64,000 bases of DNA, from NCBI RefSeq assembly GCF_008711285.1, contig NZ_VXDC01000006.1, positions 124,001-188,000 on the forward strand, written 5' to 3'. The DNA is from Roseibium aquae (GTDB taxonomy: Bacteria; Pseudomonadota; Alphaproteobacteria; Rhizobiales; Stappiaceae). The notes beneath the pieces were generated by a model. That model made no database searches. It was not told where the DNA came from and saw nothing but the letters and a program-made list of their open reading frames with translations. Position numbers and translations under genes: made by a program. Positions 19,976-27,704 of this stretch are shown here, in pieces; position 1 is the first letter of the stretch, and every line of letters starts with the position of its first letter.

Positions 19976-20179
19976 TTATATTGTAATATTTAACATTGCT
20001 TTTTCTATAGAGGACTTAAGAATTGCCCTGTCGCCGATCTCATTGGCGAGGATAAGGATCAGGCGTGCGTTCAACGCATCGCTTTCGTCTTTGCTCAGCC
20101 CCTCATGGGCAGCCAAAAGATCTGCATAGAAGTCATCCGGACGGTCAAGATTTGGGGTCGCGGTGGTCGATGCAGACAT
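19976..20179 (-). CDS. DUF2783 small protein, probable coupling partner of the adjacent monooxygenase
   Basis: A 67-residue protein. MSASTTATPNLDRPDDFYAD is followed by LLAAHEGLSKDESDALNARL and LILANEIGD, the DUF2783 pattern. The ATG at 20179 has a strong GGAAGGAG site. It starts 1 base after the monooxygenase stop, so it is the last gene of the operon. In Pseudomonas putida the 3-hydroxyphenylacetate 6-hydroxylase has a flavoprotein (MhaA) and a small coupling protein (MhaB) of similar size. The pairing, order and size here match that arrangement. The equivalence of this DUF2783 protein to MhaB is my inference. Confidence 0.8.
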   Translation of the reverse strand: MSASTTATPNLDRPDDFYADLLAAHEGLSKDESDALNARLILILANEIGDRAILKSSIEKAMLNITI

Positions 20180-20180
20180 A

Positions 20181-21791
20181 TCAGAACTCCTTCCCAATTG
20201 ATTTGGCAACGGCGCCAGCAATCGCTCCCTCGTCAAAACCGGTCCATCTGGCGGCCACATGCTGATCCGGCCGGATCAGATAGACGGCCCGATCGGCCTC
20301 GCCCATGTATCTGTCCCGAAGAACCGGATTGAGGCCCGGACCGGTCAGGGTCAGGCCCTCAACGGCAAGGCCGTCACAGTGAAGAGCCGGTGGTACTTCA
20401 CAATTCATGCCGAGCAATACAAACCGATTGCCGAGCCTGTCGATCAGCCAGCCCTCATCCAGCGGCGCATCCACAACCGGGGCGCCGGGACAGAGCCGCG
20501 CCGGCAGGTCCGCCGCGTCCGGCCCGTTCAACGGAGAAACGCGATAGGTGCTCGGCAGGGACAGCCGGCCCGAATTCACCAGCGGACGGGCAAACGCTTG
20601 GGTCTCGGCAAGATCAAGCACCGCATCGCGGAACAAGCGACTGACCTCGGACTTCGGCGTGATGAAGTCCGTCGAGCGGCTGGAGTTCAGAATATTCTCG
20701 TCAGCCGCGTACACCCGTTCGGCATCATAGCTGTCGAGCAGGCTCTCGGGCGCTTTTCCGGACAGCACAAGATCGAGTTTCCAGGCCAGGTTGTCGGCAT
20801 CCTGAAAGCCGGAGTTCGCGCCGCGGGCGCCAAAAGGCGACACCTGATGGGCGCTGTCCCCGGCGAAGATCACGTGCCCGTGCCGGAACTTCTCCATCCG
20901 CCGGCATTGGAAGGTGTAGATCGACAGCCATTCGAGAGAAAACTCGACCTCCTCGCCGAGCATCTGCTTCAGACGCGGGATCACCTTTTCCGGCCTTTTT
21001 TCCTCGTCCTTGTCAATGTCCCAGCCGAGTTGGAGGTCGATCCGCCACACGCCGTCTGGCTGCTTGTGCAACAGCGCGGACTGGCCCGGGTTGAAGGGGG
21101 GATCGAACCAGAACCAGCGTTCTGTCGGGAAATCCGCCTGCATGATGACGTCGGCGATCAGAAAATTGTCTTCAAAGACACGGCCCACGAAGTCGAGCCC
21201 CATCATGTTCCGGACCGGTGAAGCAGCCCCGTCGCAAGCGATCAGCCAATCGGCGTCGAGATCATAGGACCCGTCCTGGGTGTCGATGGACACGCGGGTA
21301 TGATCCTCGCGCCGGTCCAAACCGGTAACCCTGTTGCCGCCCCGGATCTCTATCGGCTTTCCCTTCGACTGGAGTTCCCGCGCCCGCTCGACCAGATAAA
21401 GCTCACAGTAATACTGCTGGAGATTGATGAAGGCGGGACGCTTGTGATGATCTTCGGGCAGAAGGTTGAAATCGTAGACCTTCCGGTCCTTGAAAAAGAC
21501 CTTCCCCAGGTTCCAGACCACACCCTTGTTCACCATCGGATCGCCGCAGCCAAGCCGGTCGAGGATCTCAAGCGAACGTTTCGCGAAACAAATGGCCCGC
21601 GAGCCGAAGCTTACCTTGTCATTGTCGTCCAGCACGACGACTGGCACATCCTTCATCGCCATGTCGATCGCGAAGGCAAGGCCGACCGGCCCCGCGCCGA
21701 TCACCACGACCGGATGCCGCACGGGCGCTGCCGCCGACTGGTCGGGCGAAGGCTGATAGGGATAGAGCGGCGTTTCAAATATCTTGGTCAT
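20181..21791 (-). CDS. FAD-dependent aromatic monooxygenase (MhpA/MhaA-like)
   Basis: A 536-residue class A flavoprotein hydroxylase. It carries the FAD motif VVVIGAGPVGLAFAIDMA near residue 30, the DG motif ADWLIACDGAASPVRNMMGL near 180, and the GD motif VIFAGDSAHQVSPFGARGAN near 310. The C-terminal thioredoxin-like part is short. Such enzymes hydroxylate phenols using NAD(P)H and oxygen. Context (homogentisate dioxygenase and fumarylacetoacetate hydrolase on the same strand, and a DUF2783 partner) points to a hydroxyphenylacetate-type substrate giving homogentisate. The ATG at 21791 overlaps the DinB stop (ATGA), which fixes the start and shows translational coupling. Substrate is inferred. 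Confidence 0.88.
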   Translation of the reverse strand: MTKIFETPLYPYQPSPDQSAAAPVRHPVVVIGAGPVGLAFAIDMAMKDVPVVVLDDNDKVSFGSRAICFAKRSLEILDRLGCGDPMVNKGVVWNLGKVFFKDRKVYDFNLLPEDHHKRPAFINLQQYYCELYLVERARELQSKGKPIEIRGGNRVTGLDRREDHTRVSIDTQDGSYDLDADWLIACDGAASPVRNMMGLDFVGRVFEDNFLIADVIMQADFPTERWFWFDPPFNPGQSALLHKQPDGVWRIDLQLGWDIDKDEEKRPEKVIPRLKQMLGEEVEFSLEWLSIYTFQCRRMEKFRHGHVIFAGDSAHQVSPFGARGANSGFQDADNLAWKLDLVLSGKAPESLLDSYDAERVYAADENILNSSRSTDFITPKSEVSRLFRDAVLDLAETQAFARPLVNSGRLSLPSTYRVSPLNGPDAADLPARLCPGAPVVDAPLDEGWLIDRLGNRFVLLGMNCEVPPALHCDGLAVEGLTLTGPGLNPVLRDRYMGEADRAVYLIRPDQHVAARWTGFDEGAIAGAVAKSIGKEF

Positions 21792-22339
21792 TCGGTGTCC
21801 TCCCACAGCCTGTTGGCAAGATGTTTCTCGGCGACAGGATGCCGGTCGAAGCGGATGAAAAACTCGTCGAGCTGGGGCGGCGCGACGGATGTCGAGTCCA
21901 GCATAGCGTGCACCTGGCCCCGGTGATGGATCTGATGCTGGAACAGATGCAAAAGCGTATGATCGACGCGCTCGTGCCACAGGCCGTCCCCGCCCCGGTC
22001 TTGCGGGACTGTGCGCTTGAGGTCCCGATCGGCCAATCCATCGCAAAACGCAGTCAACCGGCCGTCATGCGCGGTCTGGGCTCCGGCCAGTTCGGCGGCC
22101 GTCTCCAGAGCCGGCGCATCAAAGACCGAACGCCCCCGCCCGCTTTCGGTCAAGGCGTCAAGATAATAGCGGTCCACCTGCAGAATGTGGTTGAGCGTTT
22201 TGGAGATGGACGGGAAGAAGCCCGCCCGCGCGGCATCAAACTCCGCCGCCGAAAGGGCGCAACAGGCCTCGTAGAGCCGTTCATTGGCGTAGGCGTTGTT
22301 GCGCGCCATCAGGCGGAGATGATCCAGCACCAAAGACAT
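21788..22339 (-). CDS. DinB-fold protein, candidate maleylacetoacetate isomerase
   Basis: A 183-residue four-helix DinB superfamily protein. The metal triad typical of the fold is present: His51 in TLNHILQVDRYYL, and His135 and His139 in HLFQHQIHHRGQV. The superfamily includes thiol-dependent isomerases such as mycothiol-dependent maleylpyruvate isomerase as well as DinB and bacillithiol transferases. It is coupled by ATGA overlaps to the MBL gene upstream and the monooxygenase downstream, so it is made with the homogentisate enzymes. No GST-type maleylacetoacetate isomerase is visible in the window. Fold is sure; the isomerase role is a hypothesis. Confidence 0.88.
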   Translation of the reverse strand: MSLVLDHLRLMARNNAYANERLYEACCALSAAEFDAARAGFFPSISKTLNHILQVDRYYLDALTESGRGRSVFDAPALETAAELAGAQTAHDGRLTAFCDGLADRDLKRTVPQDRGGDGLWHERVDHTLLHLFQHQIHHRGQVHAMLDSTSVAPPQLDEFFIRFDRHPVAEKHLANRLWEDTE

Positions 22340-23289
22340 CAGCCCTGGAGATCCTGCCACATCCTGGCATCGCGCTCGGCCGTCCAGATGCGCGGCGTAT
22401 CGATACCGCGGGCCTCGTCATAAGCCCTTGCGACATTGAACGGGAGGCAGTGCTCGTAGATGGCGTAGTCCTTGAACTTCGGATCGCATTCGGCCCGGAC
22501 CGCGTCCCAGGCTTCTTTCAGACTGCCGCCGCGGGCAACCACCTTGGCGACCGGACGATAGGTGCTCTCCACGAAGTCGCGGGTGCTTTCGATGGCGGCA
22601 TACACCATTTCGGGACCGACCAGCGCGTCGCCGCGCCCCGGCGCGATCGATTGCGGATCGAACGAGCGGATGGCATCCAGCGTGCCGCCCCATTCCTCGA
22701 AATGGCCGTCCCCGCAATAGCAGGCCGAGTGGTACTCGACGATATCGCCGGTGAACATCACCTCCTCATCCGGCACCCAGGCCACGATATCGCCCGCCGT
22801 GTGGGCCCGGCCCAGATGCATGAGATCGACCCGGCGGTTGCCAAGATAAACGGTCATGCGCTCGGAAAAGGTGGTCGTTGGCCAGGTCAGGCCGGGGATG
22901 CTTTCATGGCCCTGGAACAGGCGCGGAAACCGTTGGAATTCGCTTTCCCAGTCCTCCTGACCGCGCTCCGCCACCATGGCCCGCGCGCCGTCGCTCATGA
23001 TCACGGTGGGCGCCTGATAAGCCGATGCCCCCAGCACCCTGACCGCATGATAGTGGGTAAGCACAAGGTGGCTGATCGGCTTGTCGGTGACGGAGCGCAC
23101 CTTTTCGATCACCTTGTTGGCAAGGCGCGGTGTCGCCTGCGCCTCGATGACCATCACGCTGTCATCGCCGATGATCACCCCGGAATTGGGATCGCCCTCG
23201 GCGGTAAAAGCCCAAAGATCGCGGCCGATCTCGGTGAAGGAGATCTTCTTTTCTTCCATATCGCCTGCGGAGGCAAATTGCTTGGTCAT
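22339..23289 (-). CDS. metallo-beta-lactamase-fold protein with incomplete metal motif
   Basis: A 316-residue MBL-fold protein. The usual HxHxDH metal motif reads LTHYHAVRVLGA at residues 78-89, with Asp and the third His replaced by Val and Arg. Later ligands are present: MHLGRAHTAGDIVAW and MFTGDIVEYHSACYCG. It may bind one metal or use the site differently. The first residues (MTKQFASAGDMEEKK) have no signal peptide. It is the first of four coupled genes (MBL, DinB, monooxygenase, DUF2783) in an aromatic-degradation region, so a hydrolase for a ring-cleavage side product or a thioester is plausible. No specific reaction can be assigned. Confidence 0.85.
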   Translation of the reverse strand: MTKQFASAGDMEEKKISFTEIGRDLWAFTAEGDPNSGVIIGDDSVMVIEAQATPRLANKVIEKVRSVTDKPISHLVLTHYHAVRVLGASAYQAPTVIMSDGARAMVAERGQEDWESEFQRFPRLFQGHESIPGLTWPTTTFSERMTVYLGNRRVDLMHLGRAHTAGDIVAWVPDEEVMFTGDIVEYHSACYCGDGHFEEWGGTLDAIRSFDPQSIAPGRGDALVGPEMVYAAIESTRDFVESTYRPVAKVVARGGSLKEAWDAVRAECDPKFKDYAIYEHCLPFNVARAYDEARGIDTPRIWTAERDARMWQDLQG

Positions 23290-23344: not shown

Positions 23345-23875
23345 TCAGTTCGCGGTTTGCGCCAGTTCGCGCAGAATGGCTTTCACCGACAGGACGTCCC
23401 CATCAAGGTCGGTCACGATGTCGTCGACAACGGACTGGTCATCCTCCACCACCACGGTGAAACGGGTTTCCCGGTAGGCCTGGAACTCGGCCTGTGTTCC
23501 AAAACACGCCATTGCCTGAAACCGGGCAACAACCTGGGTCACACCATTTGCGCTTGACCCCGGTTCGATCGTGAGGTTTTCCAGCGGACAGCCGTCCTGC
23601 GCATTGACGATGACGTCCCAGTTGAACGGTGACCCCATCTCTTTTGCATCTTCGGTGGCGGCCGCCTTGCGGTAGAGCTCGGCAAACTCGGTGCTGTAAA
23701 GCGCCGCCAATCGGTCATCCGAGAAATAGTCCTCATAGCCCGAAGCCGAGGCCGACCAGTTCGTTTCGGCAAGCGCCATCAGTGACGCGACCGGCGCAGT
23801 TGGGTCGGTGGCCAGAGCGGACGCCGGACATAAAACCAGCGCCGCAATCGGCAAAACCTGTCGGATCATCTTCAT
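23345..23875 (-). CDS. secreted protein of unknown function
   Basis: A 176-residue protein beginning with a Sec signal peptide (MKMIRQVLPIAALVLCPASA, cut near ALATDP). The mature part is mostly acidic and contains EDYFSDDRLAALYSTEFAELY, a Cys pair (DGCPLENL and AMACFGTQ) and a C-terminal FTVVVEDDQSVVDDI strand. It resembles small periplasmic DUF3828-like proteins, a weak impression only. It lies between the fumarylacetoacetate hydrolase gene (117 bases upstream) and the MBL gene (55 bases downstream), all on the minus strand, so it is probably in the same transcript. A periplasmic protein inside an aromatic-acid operon might be a binding or quality-control factor. Function unknown. Confidence 0.78.
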   Translation of the reverse strand: MKMIRQVLPIAALVLCPASALATDPTAPVASLMALAETNWSASASGYEDYFSDDRLAALYSTEFAELYRKAAATEDAKEMGSPFNWDVIVNAQDGCPLENLTIEPGSSANGVTQVVARFQAMACFGTQAEFQAYRETRFTVVVEDDQSVVDDIVTDLDGDVLSVKAILRELAQTAN

Positions 23876-23992
23876 CTTCTCGTCTCCACTAACGGGCGCG
23901 GGGGGCGTCTGACAGGCCCTCTTGCGGCTCCGGCCCAATTCCCCCCGTTATCCGCCGGTTGCGTGACCGGGCAGTGATCGGCGGCGCCGCCT

Positions 23993-25003
23993 TCAGGCCG
24001 CCTTTTCAACTTTCTGCTCAATCGCGCCGAAGACCGAATGCCCTTGCTTGTCGAGCATCTCGATCCGGACCTCATCGCCGAACTTAAGGAACGGGGTCTT
24101 CGGCGCGCCGGCGTTGATGGTTTCGATCATGCGGATCTCGGCGATGCAGGAATACCCGACACCGCCATCTGCGACCGGCTTGCCCGGACCGCCGTCCAGC
24201 TTGTTGGATACGGTGCCCGAGCCGATGATCGTGCCCGCGCCGAGCGGCCGCGTCTTAGCCGCATGGGCGATCAGCTGGCCGAAGTCGAAGGTCATGTCGA
24301 CCCCCGCATCAGCCCGGCCAAAGGGCAGGCCGTTCAGGTCGACACGGAGCGGCAAGTGCAGTTTGCCGCCGTCCCAGGCCTCACCCAGACTGTCCGGCGT
24401 GACAGCGACCGGCGAGAAGGCCGAAGAAGGCTTGGACTGGAAAAAGCCGAAGCCCTTTCCGAGTTCGGCCGGGATGAGGCCGCGCAAGGACACATCGTTC
24501 ACCAGCATCACGAGGCGGATGGCCTCGCGGGCCTGTTCCACGCTCGCGCCCATCGGCACATCATCGACGATCACGGCGACCTCGCCCTCCATGTCGATGC
24601 CCCAGGCTTCATCGCCCATCACGATGGGGTCGCGCGGGCCGAGGAACGTGTCCGAACCGCCTTGATACATCAGCGGATCGGTCCAGAAACTGTCCGGCAT
24701 CTCCGCGCCGCGCGCCTTGCGCACCAGTTCCACGTGATTGACATAGGCAGAGCCGTCCGCCCACTGGTAGGCCCGCGGCAAAGGCGACATGGCGTCGTGC
24801 TCATGGAACCGCAAAGACGGCACCGCATCATGGCTCAGGCTCTCGGCCAGGACCTGCAGTTTCGGGGCCACCTCCGCCCAGTTGTCGAGCGCCGCCTGAA
24901 GGGTCGGAGCAATGTGGTCGGCATAGCTGCAGCGGGTGACACTGTCATTGACGACCACCAGCCGTCCGTCCCTTGTGCCATTCTTCAGTGTGGCGAGTTT
25001 CAT
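23993..25003 (-). CDS. fumarylacetoacetate hydrolase family protein
   Basis: A 336-residue FAH-superfamily enzyme. Key parts are WADGSAYVNHVELVRKARG near residue 85, YQGGSDTFLGPRDPI, the metal-site DMEGEVAVIVDDVPMG near 140, VNDVSLRG, and the C-terminal GTIIGSGTVSNK with YSCIAEIRMIETI. It would cleave fumarylacetoacetate to fumarate and acetoacetate, the last step of the homogentisate pathway. The length fits bacterial two-domain FAH. Its ATG overlaps the stop of the upstream MBL hydrolase gene (positions 25000-25003), so the two are coupled. hmgA is two genes upstream, which supports this role over other FAH-fold activities. Confidence 0.9.
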   Translation of the reverse strand: MKLATLKNGTRDGRLVVVNDSVTRCSYADHIAPTLQAALDNWAEVAPKLQVLAESLSHDAVPSLRFHEHDAMSPLPRAYQWADGSAYVNHVELVRKARGAEMPDSFWTDPLMYQGGSDTFLGPRDPIVMGDEAWGIDMEGEVAVIVDDVPMGASVEQAREAIRLVMLVNDVSLRGLIPAELGKGFGFFQSKPSSAFSPVAVTPDSLGEAWDGGKLHLPLRVDLNGLPFGRADAGVDMTFDFGQLIAHAAKTRPLGAGTIIGSGTVSNKLDGGPGKPVADGGVGYSCIAEIRMIETINAGAPKTPFLKFGDEVRIEMLDKQGHSVFGAIEQKVEKAA

Positions 25004-25917
25004 TGAGCGCTCCTCGTTAGGGTCAGGCCATCGCGGCCGATTGTGATTGGTCCGGCATAGTGGCCCCGAGTGGCCGCCAGCCAGTCTTTTTCGTCAAACC
25101 CCGGCAGATCCGCCGGGATCAAATGGTTCAGCACAAGCTGCTTGGCACCGGCCGCCGACGCGATCCGGGCGGCATCGGGAGCCAGCGTATGGCTGTCCAT
25201 CAGATGGGTGCGCAGACGTTCTCCGTTGCCGGTGATCTCGACGATCTTGTCGACCCCGTCCGCCAGCATGGCCTCATGGACCAACACATCGCAACCACTT
25301 GCAAAGCCGGCCAGCGGCGGGAAATAGGTGGTGTCGGCGCTGAAGACAACACACCAGTCGGGGGTGCGGAACTTCAACGCGAAACACTCGGTCACCGGCG
25401 GATGCTTGACCCGCAGGGCGGAGACCTCGAGGCCTTCCAACCCAAGCGGCCCTTCGCCATATTCAACGACCGTCACAAAATCCCGCGGGTCCGGTCTTCC
25501 CTCATCGGCAATCCGAAGGTCGATATCGTATCTCATCGAGGCCAGGAAGCCCGTCCAATAGGCGGCGGTGCCGGAGGGGCCGAACACCGTCACCGGCGTT
25601 TTCAAGCCGGTCGTCCAGGCCGTGTGGATCAGCGGCCCCAGTTCGAGGATGTGATCAGAATGCAGGTGCGTGATGAAAATGAGATCGAGCTCTTTCAGTG
25701 TGACACCAGCTTCGACCAGCCCGCGCGTCACCCCCAAACCGCAATCGATGACGCAGCGGCGCCCGCCAATTTCCAGGAGGCTGCTGGTCGGTGACGGCCC
25801 GCCAGGGCGGATCGCCGGTCCACCCTTGGTACCCAGCAGCACAAGGCGGTCCTCTATGGTTTTTCGGTCTCCCACGAACTGATTCCCCAGAAAGCCGCCT
25901 GAACGCTGATGTTCCAA
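25000..25917 (-). CDS. MBL-fold metal hydrolase
   Basis: A 305-residue MBL protein with the complete motif FITHLHSDHILELGPL near residue 85. The other ligands are VFSADTTYFPPL, VLVHEAML and LVLNHLIPADLPG near the C-terminus. The fold resembles RNase Z/arylsulfatase-type hydrolases that act on small esters, lactones or thioesters. The annotated start at 25917 is a TTG; a GTG at 25875 with GGGGAA upstream is an alternative that removes 14 residues. It is coupled to the FAH gene by a 4-base overlap. It could clear a lactone or ester by-product of homogentisate metabolism; that is inference. Confidence 0.82.
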   Translation of the reverse strand: MEHQRSGGFLGNQFVGDRKTIEDRLVLLGTKGGPAIRPGGPSPTSSLLEIGGRRCVIDCGLGVTRGLVEAGVTLKELDLIFITHLHSDHILELGPLIHTAWTTGLKTPVTVFGPSGTAAYWTGFLASMRYDIDLRIADEGRPDPRDFVTVVEYGEGPLGLEGLEVSALRVKHPPVTECFALKFRTPDWCVVFSADTTYFPPLAGFASGCDVLVHEAMLADGVDKIVEITGNGERLRTHLMDSHTLAPDAARIASAAGAKQLVLNHLIPADLPGFDEKDWLAATRGHYAGPITIGRDGLTLTRSAQ

Positions 25918-26129: not shown

Positions 26130-27500
26130 CTACTTGTCCCAAGTGCCTTCAGGCGTGCCGTCGTATTTCTTTTCCAAACTGTCCCAGCAGTCGATGTAAT
26201 CGTCTTGGAGGGGGGCCTCCTTGGCCGCAAATTCCGTCAGGTGCTGCGGGAACCGGGTCTCGAACATGAAGGACATGGTCTGGTCGAGCTTATGCGGCTT
26301 CAGATCGCTTGTGGAGGCGCCTTCGAACGCTTCGCGATCCGGCCCGTGCGGCAGCATCATGTTGTGCAGGCTCATGCCGCCCGGCACGAAGCCCTGCGGT
26401 TTGGCATCATACTGGCCATAGATATTGCCCATCAGCTCGGACATGATGTTCTTGTGGTACCAGGGCGGACGGAAGGTGTTTTCCATCACCATCCAGCGCT
26501 CGCGGAACAGCACGAAGTCGATATTGGCCGTACCCGGCACGCCGGACGGCGCTGTCAGGACGGTGAAAATCGACGGATCCGGGTGATCGAACAGGATTGC
26601 GCCGATCGGGCAGTAGGTCCGCAGGTCGTATTTCACCGGCGCATAATTGCCGTGCCAGGCGACCACATCGAGCGGCGACTGATTGATGTCGGTCTTGTGG
26701 AACTGGCCGCACCATTTGATCGTGAGCGTCGACGGCACCTCGCGATCCTCATACCAGGCGACGGGTGTCTTGAAGTCGCGGCGGTTGGCCATGCAGTTGG
26801 CACCGATCGGACCCCGGCCCGGCAGCTCGAATTTCTGGCCGTAGTTTTCGCAGACAAAGCCGCGCGCCGGCCCCTCCAGAAGCTCGACCCGGTAGACCAG
26901 CCCGCGCGGGATGATGGCGATTTCCTTCGGCTCCAGGTCCATGACACCAAGCTCGGTGTAGAACCGCAACCGGCCTTCCTGAGGCACGATCAGGATCTCG
27001 CTGTCGGCGGAATAGAAATAGTCATCGATCATGCTGTCGGTGACCAGATAGATATGGCTCGCCATGCCGACCTGCGTATTGACGTCGCCGGCGGTCGTCA
27101 TGGTCCGCATGCCGGTCAGCCAGGTCAGCTTGTCTTCCGTGTACGGCACCGGGTCCCAGCGGTACTGGCCGAGCGAAATCACATCGTCGACCACATGCGG
27201 GGCGGACTTCCAATAAGGCAGATCGATCTTCGTATAGCGGCCCGAATGCTTCACCGAAGGCCGGATCCGGTAACACCAGGTCCGCTCGTTCTGGTGGCTG
27301 GGTGCCGTGAAGGCCGTGCCGGAGAGCTGCTCGCCGTAAAGGCCAAAGGCGCATTTCTGCGGGCTGTTCATGCCTTGCGGCAGGGACCCCGGAAGGGCTT
27401 CGGTCTCAAAGTCATTGCCGAAACCGGGCATGAACTCGAGCTTCGCCTGATTGATGGAAAGACCACGCGAATCTGCGTGGGCGGTGTTGATTTGGTCCAT
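26130..27500 (-). CDS. hmgA: homogentisate 1,2-dioxygenase
   Basis: A 456-residue ring-cleaving dioxygenase converting homogentisate and oxygen to maleylacetoacetate, with non-haem Fe(II). The iron ligands are visible with the spacing of the human enzyme: His349 and Glu355 in [16 protein letters not shown] and His385 in [14 protein letters not shown]-terminal [18 protein letters not shown] and [19 protein letters not shown] also match. The ATG at 27500 has a GGGAGGAC site, so six upstream codons are dropped. It heads the minus-strand aromatic region; the palindromic element separates it from the MBL and FAH genes. No regulator gene lies next to it. Confidence 0.97.
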
Positions 27501-27704
27501 GGTTGCGTCCTCCCGCACCGTGCTGGCCTCAATTTAGTTTCACTTGTAACCAAATGGATCGTAGCGGTCAAGCGCGACCTCATCCGCCCCGGCCGCAAAC
27601 GCCTTTTGTGGCCGTCCGCAGGCCATTTCTTCCGAACGGGTAGCTTTGGCTTAACTTTCCCAGCCTACCCTGAGAACAGGTTCGTTCATGCATAAGGTTG
27701 CCCG

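Follow-up and report, generated by a model that had tools for sequence, protein, structure and literature searches.

A DinB-superfamily protein encoded among the homogentisate genes of Roseibium aquae is a possible auxiliary maleylacetoacetate isomerase

What does a DinB-superfamily protein do in an operon for homogentisate breakdown? This question is raised by a 64,000-nucleotide stretch of the Roseibium aquae genome (contig NZ_VXDC01000006.1, positions 124,001 to 188,000; hereafter the window, to whose numbering positions refer unless another contig is named). A minus-strand gene at 21788-22339 encodes a DinB/S-transferase-like protein of 183 amino acids, called DinB below. An earlier reading of the window, made from its letters without database searches (the sequence-only reading), proposed that DinB replaces a missing maleylacetoacetate isomerase, MaiA. 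Our analysis suggests that DinB takes part in the homogentisate pathway as a metal-dependent enzyme, probably one that uses glutathione. Its likeliest role is that of an auxiliary or alternative maleylacetoacetate isomerase, a reading to which we give a probability of about 0.4. This reading agrees with the reaction of the closest analogue of known function, with the position of DinB next to fumarylacetoacetate hydrolase (FAH), and with the existence of operons with DinB in genomes without MaiA.

DinB matched PF05163 at 76.7 bits (cut-off 23) and PF12867 at 44 bits (cut-off 24.8), and a profile search of the whole genome returned this gene as the single DinB_2 match. His51, His135 and His139 were invariant in the 30 rows of alignment A1, which bears out the full histidine triad described in the sequence-only reading. 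These residues are a presumed metal triad, and their conservation suggests that the protein is probably metal-binding. The structure model (pLDDT 92.2) has the four-helix DinB/S-transferase fold. YizA (2qe9), which is 18% identical to DinB, was the nearest solved structure in the sequence comparison (E 2.1e-7) as well as by Z score (17.5), and YjoA (3dka) also matches. The host of DinB, an alphaproteobacterium, is expected to use glutathione, unlike the bacillithiol-using Bacillus systems, and the context of DinB is aromatic catabolism. YizA (BstH) and YjoA (BstD) are Bacillus bacillithiol S-transferases, a group described, in the part of PMC5815605 used here, as having three conserved histidines, as DinB has.

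The model also resembles the mycothiol-dependent maleylpyruvate isomerase (2NSF), a longer protein of the DinB superfamily. The two are 12% identical, at 240 versus 183 residues; the alignment with 2nsf spans residues 6-164, and that with the H52A mutant (2nsg) spans 6-196 at an rmsd of 6.2. The mycothiol-dependent enzyme uses His-Glu-His, whereas DinB has three histidines. It also carries a C-terminal domain behind its DinB domain, and both the lengths and the extent of the alignment indicate that DinB has no such domain. DinB did not match the MDMPI family: at E 0.001, Pfam returned PF05163 and PF12867 only, and NCBIfam returned no family. MaiA, a zeta-class glutathione S-transferase (GST; TIGR01262), has the function proposed here for DinB and a different fold.

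The metal, the thiol, the substrate and the reaction are what we infer for DinB. In the proposed mechanism, addition of the glutathione thiol to the cis double bond of maleylacetoacetate would be followed by rotation of the adduct and then by elimination, which would yield trans fumarylacetoacetate for FAH. The genome that contains the window also has an unlinked zeta-class MaiA, which would make DinB redundant there, whereas some Bosea, Roseibium and Roseobacter strains would have no other dedicated isomerase. A broader version, in which a clade of alphaproteobacterial DinB proteins isomerizes maleylacetoacetate with the help of glutathione and a metal and provides a non-GST route that has replaced MaiA on more than one occasion (in Bosea, Roseibium and Roseobacter) while being redundant in strains like the present one, is possible but in our view less likely than not.

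The operon itself supports a link to homogentisate. As the sequence-only reading had it, HmgA (homogentisate 1,2-dioxygenase, 26130-27518; PF20510 371 bits, PF04209 239.9 bits, TIGR01015 642.2 bits) and FAH (short FAA_hydro_N_2 type, 23993-25003; PF01557 126.8 bits, PF18288 93.3 bits) lie in the same minus-strand region, and the profile matches place both on the strand of DinB. The order on this one strand is HmgA-MBL1-FAH-(small open reading frame)-MBL2-DinB-FAD monooxygenase-DUF2783, where MBL1 and MBL2 are metallo-beta-lactamase-fold proteins. In the sequence-only reading, DinB took the place of the isomerase and had ATGA overlaps with the genes on both sides. It is not directly between HmgA and FAH, being separated from FAH by MBL2 and the small open reading frame. 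The overlap with the monooxygenase is ATGA, with 4 nt shared, but the junction with MBL2 is TGATG, with 1 nt shared.

To compare loci, a scan of genome contigs was used that confirmed 389 relatives of DinB, and the best 80 of these were analyzed; genes were called in the comparative scripts with a simple codon-usage scorer. A DinB gene was counted as operonic when it had, in the same orientation and no more than 1.5 kb away, a homologue of FAH, FahA, MBL2, the monooxygenase or HmgA. By this definition, 52/80 were operonic and 28/80 were orphans. DinB accompanies FAH or FahA in four layouts. The first is HmgA-FAH-MBL2-DinB-monooxygenase-DUF2783, with close variants. The second, HmgA-MBL1-FAH-DinB, is found in genus g339 (L238-L240), with MaiA elsewhere in the genome. 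The third is HmgA-FahA-DinB (L079), in a genome where no MaiA was found. The fourth is an FAH-DinB pair in seven Bosea-group loci (L039, L040, L041, L052, L055, L057, L062), which adjoins a divergent TRAP-type solute-binding protein gene and occurs in genomes without MaiA in five of the seven cases. DinB stands directly behind FAH or FahA in the Bosea group, in one Roseobacter record and in genus g339. A rough open reading frame pass had also put FAH beside DinB in L031 and L067; both were dropped because neither was recovered once gene calling had improved and the 1.5 kb limit was applied.

These layouts bear on a second possible explanation, in which DinB serves the MBL2, FAD monooxygenase and DUF2783 module, which resembles a 3-hydroxyphenylacetate hydroxylase, rather than the ring-cleavage steps. 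In 42/52 operonic loci, the monooxygenase gene is indeed no more than 1.5 kb from DinB and shares its strand, and the two genes overlap by 4 nt in the window. However, FAH or FahA is near DinB without the monooxygenase in L079, L061, L035, L238-L240 and the seven Bosea-group loci, and the MBL2-monooxygenase stretch is kept without DinB in L177, L179 and L183. We therefore regard a role confined to this module as improbable.

MaiA was scored as present above the TIGR01262 cut-off, with search E limits of 1e-30 for the 80 relatives, 1e-20 for a sample of the class and 1e-35 for a sample of the order; this profile may not separate maleylacetoacetate from maleylpyruvate isomerases. The counts leave out the MaiA labels of loci L150-L167 except L154 (class-sample search). 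MaiA was present in 37/52 operonic DinB genomes and was not found in 15/52. Among the orphan genomes searched (26/28, with L065 and L076 left out), it was present in 17 and not found in nine. HmgA occurs in 11 of these 24 MaiA-less genomes, all of them operonic (L011, L015, L016, L021, L035, L038, L040, L055, L057, L079, L080), and strains with HmgA and DinB but without MaiA make the isomerase question directly testable. Several of the MaiA-less records are metagenome bins and are weak evidence of absence (L031, L035, L061, L067, L071, L075, L080, L081, L089). Of the 37 operonic genomes that have MaiA, 36 showed an HmgA, the exception being L068; this HmgA is in the DinB locus except in L052 and L062, where a second cluster (HmgA-FahA-MaiA) contains it.

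MaiA is rarely found in the DinB locus itself, being there in 4/52 cases (L027, L068, L077, L082). By comparison, 17/54 HmgA genomes of the order without operonic DinB have MaiA no more than 10 kb from hmgA, a comparison that sets the best 80 DinB relatives against an order-wide draw. Layouts without the monooxygenase were more often MaiA-less among the 52 loci (7/9 vs 8/43, with L035 counted in the latter; p = 0.001). The difference was weaker among 58 tree rows, consisting of the 52 loci, the three g339 loci, L154, L185 and the window (7/12 without the monooxygenase vs 9/46 with it; p = 0.013).

Another possible explanation is that DinB is a broad-purpose gene that ended up in this operon by accident, with no pathway-specific role. 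Other members of the clade do lie beside unrelated genes, including those for aconitase, UvrA, DAHP-synthase-family proteins, SDR proteins or acyl-CoA dehydrogenase. A DinB tree of 106 rows was built (L184 and L153 were left out, being taken as the genomes of L027 and L075), in which the DinB of the window groups with Roseibium/Stappiaceae. Operonic and orphan rows interleave on the best tree, which needs nine switches between the two labels; when only well-supported branches are counted, a single switch is required. One set of 85 rows (SH-aLRT 96) contains every one of the 58 operonic rows, and its other 27 rows are orphans. Against a chance placement, operonic rows cluster on the tree: none of 500 shuffles gave as low a count, a result to which near-copies contribute. 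DinB is also kept in several layouts. In the order sample (199 genomes), HmgA was found in 60 and DinB in 25, with both in 19, which is a strong association (p = 5e-7) by a test that, like the others on the class and order samples, ignores kinship. A chance placement is thus quite unlikely in our view.

A number of findings weigh against an isomerase role for DinB, starting with the genome that contains the window (4,403,029 bases in 37 contigs; completeness 100, contamination 0.03). The absence of MaiA holds for the window only, where no TIGR01262 match was found at E 0.001. Genome-wide, it is ruled out by an intact MaiA on contig 33, which matched TIGR01262 at 262 bits (cut-off 171) in an open frame without internal stops; eight further matches were weaker (at most 58.6 bits), below the cut-off, and none of them was inside the window. 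The argument from a missing enzyme therefore fails, and this genome has a candidate isomerase for the homogentisate pathway besides DinB. The neighborhood of MaiA, which by eye includes redoxin-like and SDR-like proteins among others, showed no link to homogentisate genes.

The predicted mutual exclusion of DinB and MaiA was not seen either. Among the 60 HmgA-positive genomes of the order, MaiA was missing from 5/19 with DinB and from 10/41 without it (Fisher p = 1.0), and its absence from 11/47 HmgA-positive operonic DinB genomes is equally common. Both genes occur together in the four loci named above and in G541 (L185), and MaiA is beside hmgA in 2/6 operonic DinB genomes of the order sample. 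The link between layout and MaiA comes down to just two independent pairs when only well-supported branches are used, which is not enough for significance. Many genomes with the DinB clade have no HmgA at all: 6/25 in the order sample and 14/18 in the class sample. In L039 and L041, the FAH-DinB pair is in genomes without an HmgA or MaiA match, and a purely homogentisate-bound role is therefore disfavored there. Finally, hmg operons were found in genomes in which neither MaiA nor the DinB clade was found (L177 in G540, L178 in G475, L179 in G521, L180 in G617), and L177, L178 and L179 suggest that the pathway may need neither gene.

The class sample was an even draw of 385 genomes, with a DinB-clade threshold of at least 180 bits (the next match had 148.8). 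HmgA was present in 51/385 (50 over the cut-off and one in two fragments), and 14/51 had no MaiA over the cut-off. The DinB clade was present in 18/385, and only four of these also had HmgA (G000, G439, G421, G330). MaiA was missing from 12/47 HmgA-positive genomes without DinB and 2/4 with DinB. Within genus g299, MaiA and DinB appeared to exclude each other (five DinB+/MaiA- and one DinB-/MaiA+). This was rejected as an operonic swap because the five DinB stretches (L170, L173-L176) have no hmg, FAH or MBL2 gene.

The main rival to an isomerase role is that DinB is a glutathione S-transferase that shields the cell from pathway electrophiles, while MaiA or glutathione alone carries out the isomerization. 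The electrophiles would be benzoquinone acetate from homogentisate, maleylacetoacetate and fumarylacetoacetate, and their succinyl by-products. Such a role is in keeping with how often MaiA is also there, in 37 of the 52 operonic genomes and at times in the DinB locus, and with a pathway that seemingly runs without either gene; judging by the HmgA genomes with neither (the 10/41 above), the pathway can seemingly do without a dedicated isomerase. In mice, a non-enzymatic bypass that depends on glutathione has reportedly been seen. Moreover, the characterized DinB/S-transferase-like proteins covered by the parts of PMC5815605 and PMC10950700 used here are thiol transferases. What conjugation leaves unexplained is the frequent adjacency of DinB to FAH and the rarity of MaiA in DinB loci (4/52). 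It could well be the true role, although we would not assume so.

For maleylacetoacetate isomerization by DinB, the outcome is mixed. The sequence-only reading would have been given up if MaiA occurred both elsewhere in this genome and in all relatives with the gene. MaiA does occur in this genome, yet it was not found in 15/52 operonic DinB genomes. Those relatives and the FAH-DinB adjacency keep isomerization possible, while the original argument from absence is lost. In any case, a conserved DinB protein is tied to homogentisate genes in part of its clade. A full-text search, outside which most subscription journals lie, found no paper naming both DinB and homogentisate. If DinB does isomerize maleylacetoacetate, two isomerases unrelated in structure would serve the breakdown of tyrosine and 3-hydroxyphenylacetate, and the pathway would be wrongly called broken in the MaiA-less genomes listed here. 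DinB would also be a glutathione-using counterpart of the mycothiol-dependent maleylpyruvate isomerase, which would give a proteobacterial DinB protein a physiological role.

Two side observations concern MaiA. The MaiA homologue of Roseibium hamelinense (L234, contig 5 near 126229-126858) has one in-frame stop, and the DinB operon genes of that species (L026) were called open; the homologue is either a recent pseudogene or the product of a sequencing error. A glyoxalase/VOC-family gene of 180 amino acids follows DUF2783 in 3/5 operons with both DinB and MaiA (L184, which is the L027 genome, L185 and L077).

The two genes downstream of DinB have likely identities by analogy. The FAD monooxygenase (20181-21791, minus strand) matched PF01494 at 187.6 bits and NF006002, a broad FAD oxidoreductase subfamily, at 793.5 bits (cut-off 416). 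The DUF2783 protein (19976-20179, minus strand; 67 amino acids) matched PF10932 at 90.9 bits. In Pseudomonas putida U and Burkholderia xenovorans, MhaAB, an FAD hydroxylase of ~560 amino acids with a 60-amino-acid partner, is described as converting 3-hydroxyphenylacetate to homogentisate, and its genes are beside the hmg genes in B. xenovorans (PMC3053370). The pair in the window is thus likely MhaAB-like, that is, a 3-hydroxyphenylacetate 6-hydroxylase with DUF2783 as the coupling protein. The hmgABC-mhaAB cluster of these two species resembles the window in joining homogentisate genes to such a pair; its isomerase is HmgC, and the portion of PMC3053370 used here does not mention a DinB gene. 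The window operon differs in its short FAH type and in the presence of MBL1 and MBL2.

The remaining genes of the operon are also on the minus strand. MBL1 is an RNase Z-like metallo-beta-lactamase-fold protein at 25000-25854 (the start is inferred; the open reading frame extends to 25917), and the whole frame matched PF12706 at 55.8 bits. It was detected in 12/80 DinB loci and lies between HmgA and FAH in the g339 loci. The small open reading frame between FAH and MBL2 (23345-23938) had no Pfam or NCBIfam match; it has a signal-peptide-like stretch, judged by eye, and a 60% homologue between FAH and MBL2 in L022 too. MBL2 (22339-23289) matched PF00753 at 42.6 bits. The usual motif of metallo-beta-lactamase-fold enzymes is HxHxDH, at the site of which MBL2 has HYHAVR, and this was kept in 8/8 correctly oriented rows of alignment A2 (row L198 was left out). 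MBL2 relatives were found in 67/199 order genomes, by eye often near HmgA or MaiA and also without DinB. In L183, from the genus of L177, the order is HmgA-FAH-MBL2-monooxygenase-DUF2783-MaiA. A second MBL2 paralogue, 54% identical, is present in the same genome as the window (G000 contig 31, 148703-149644).
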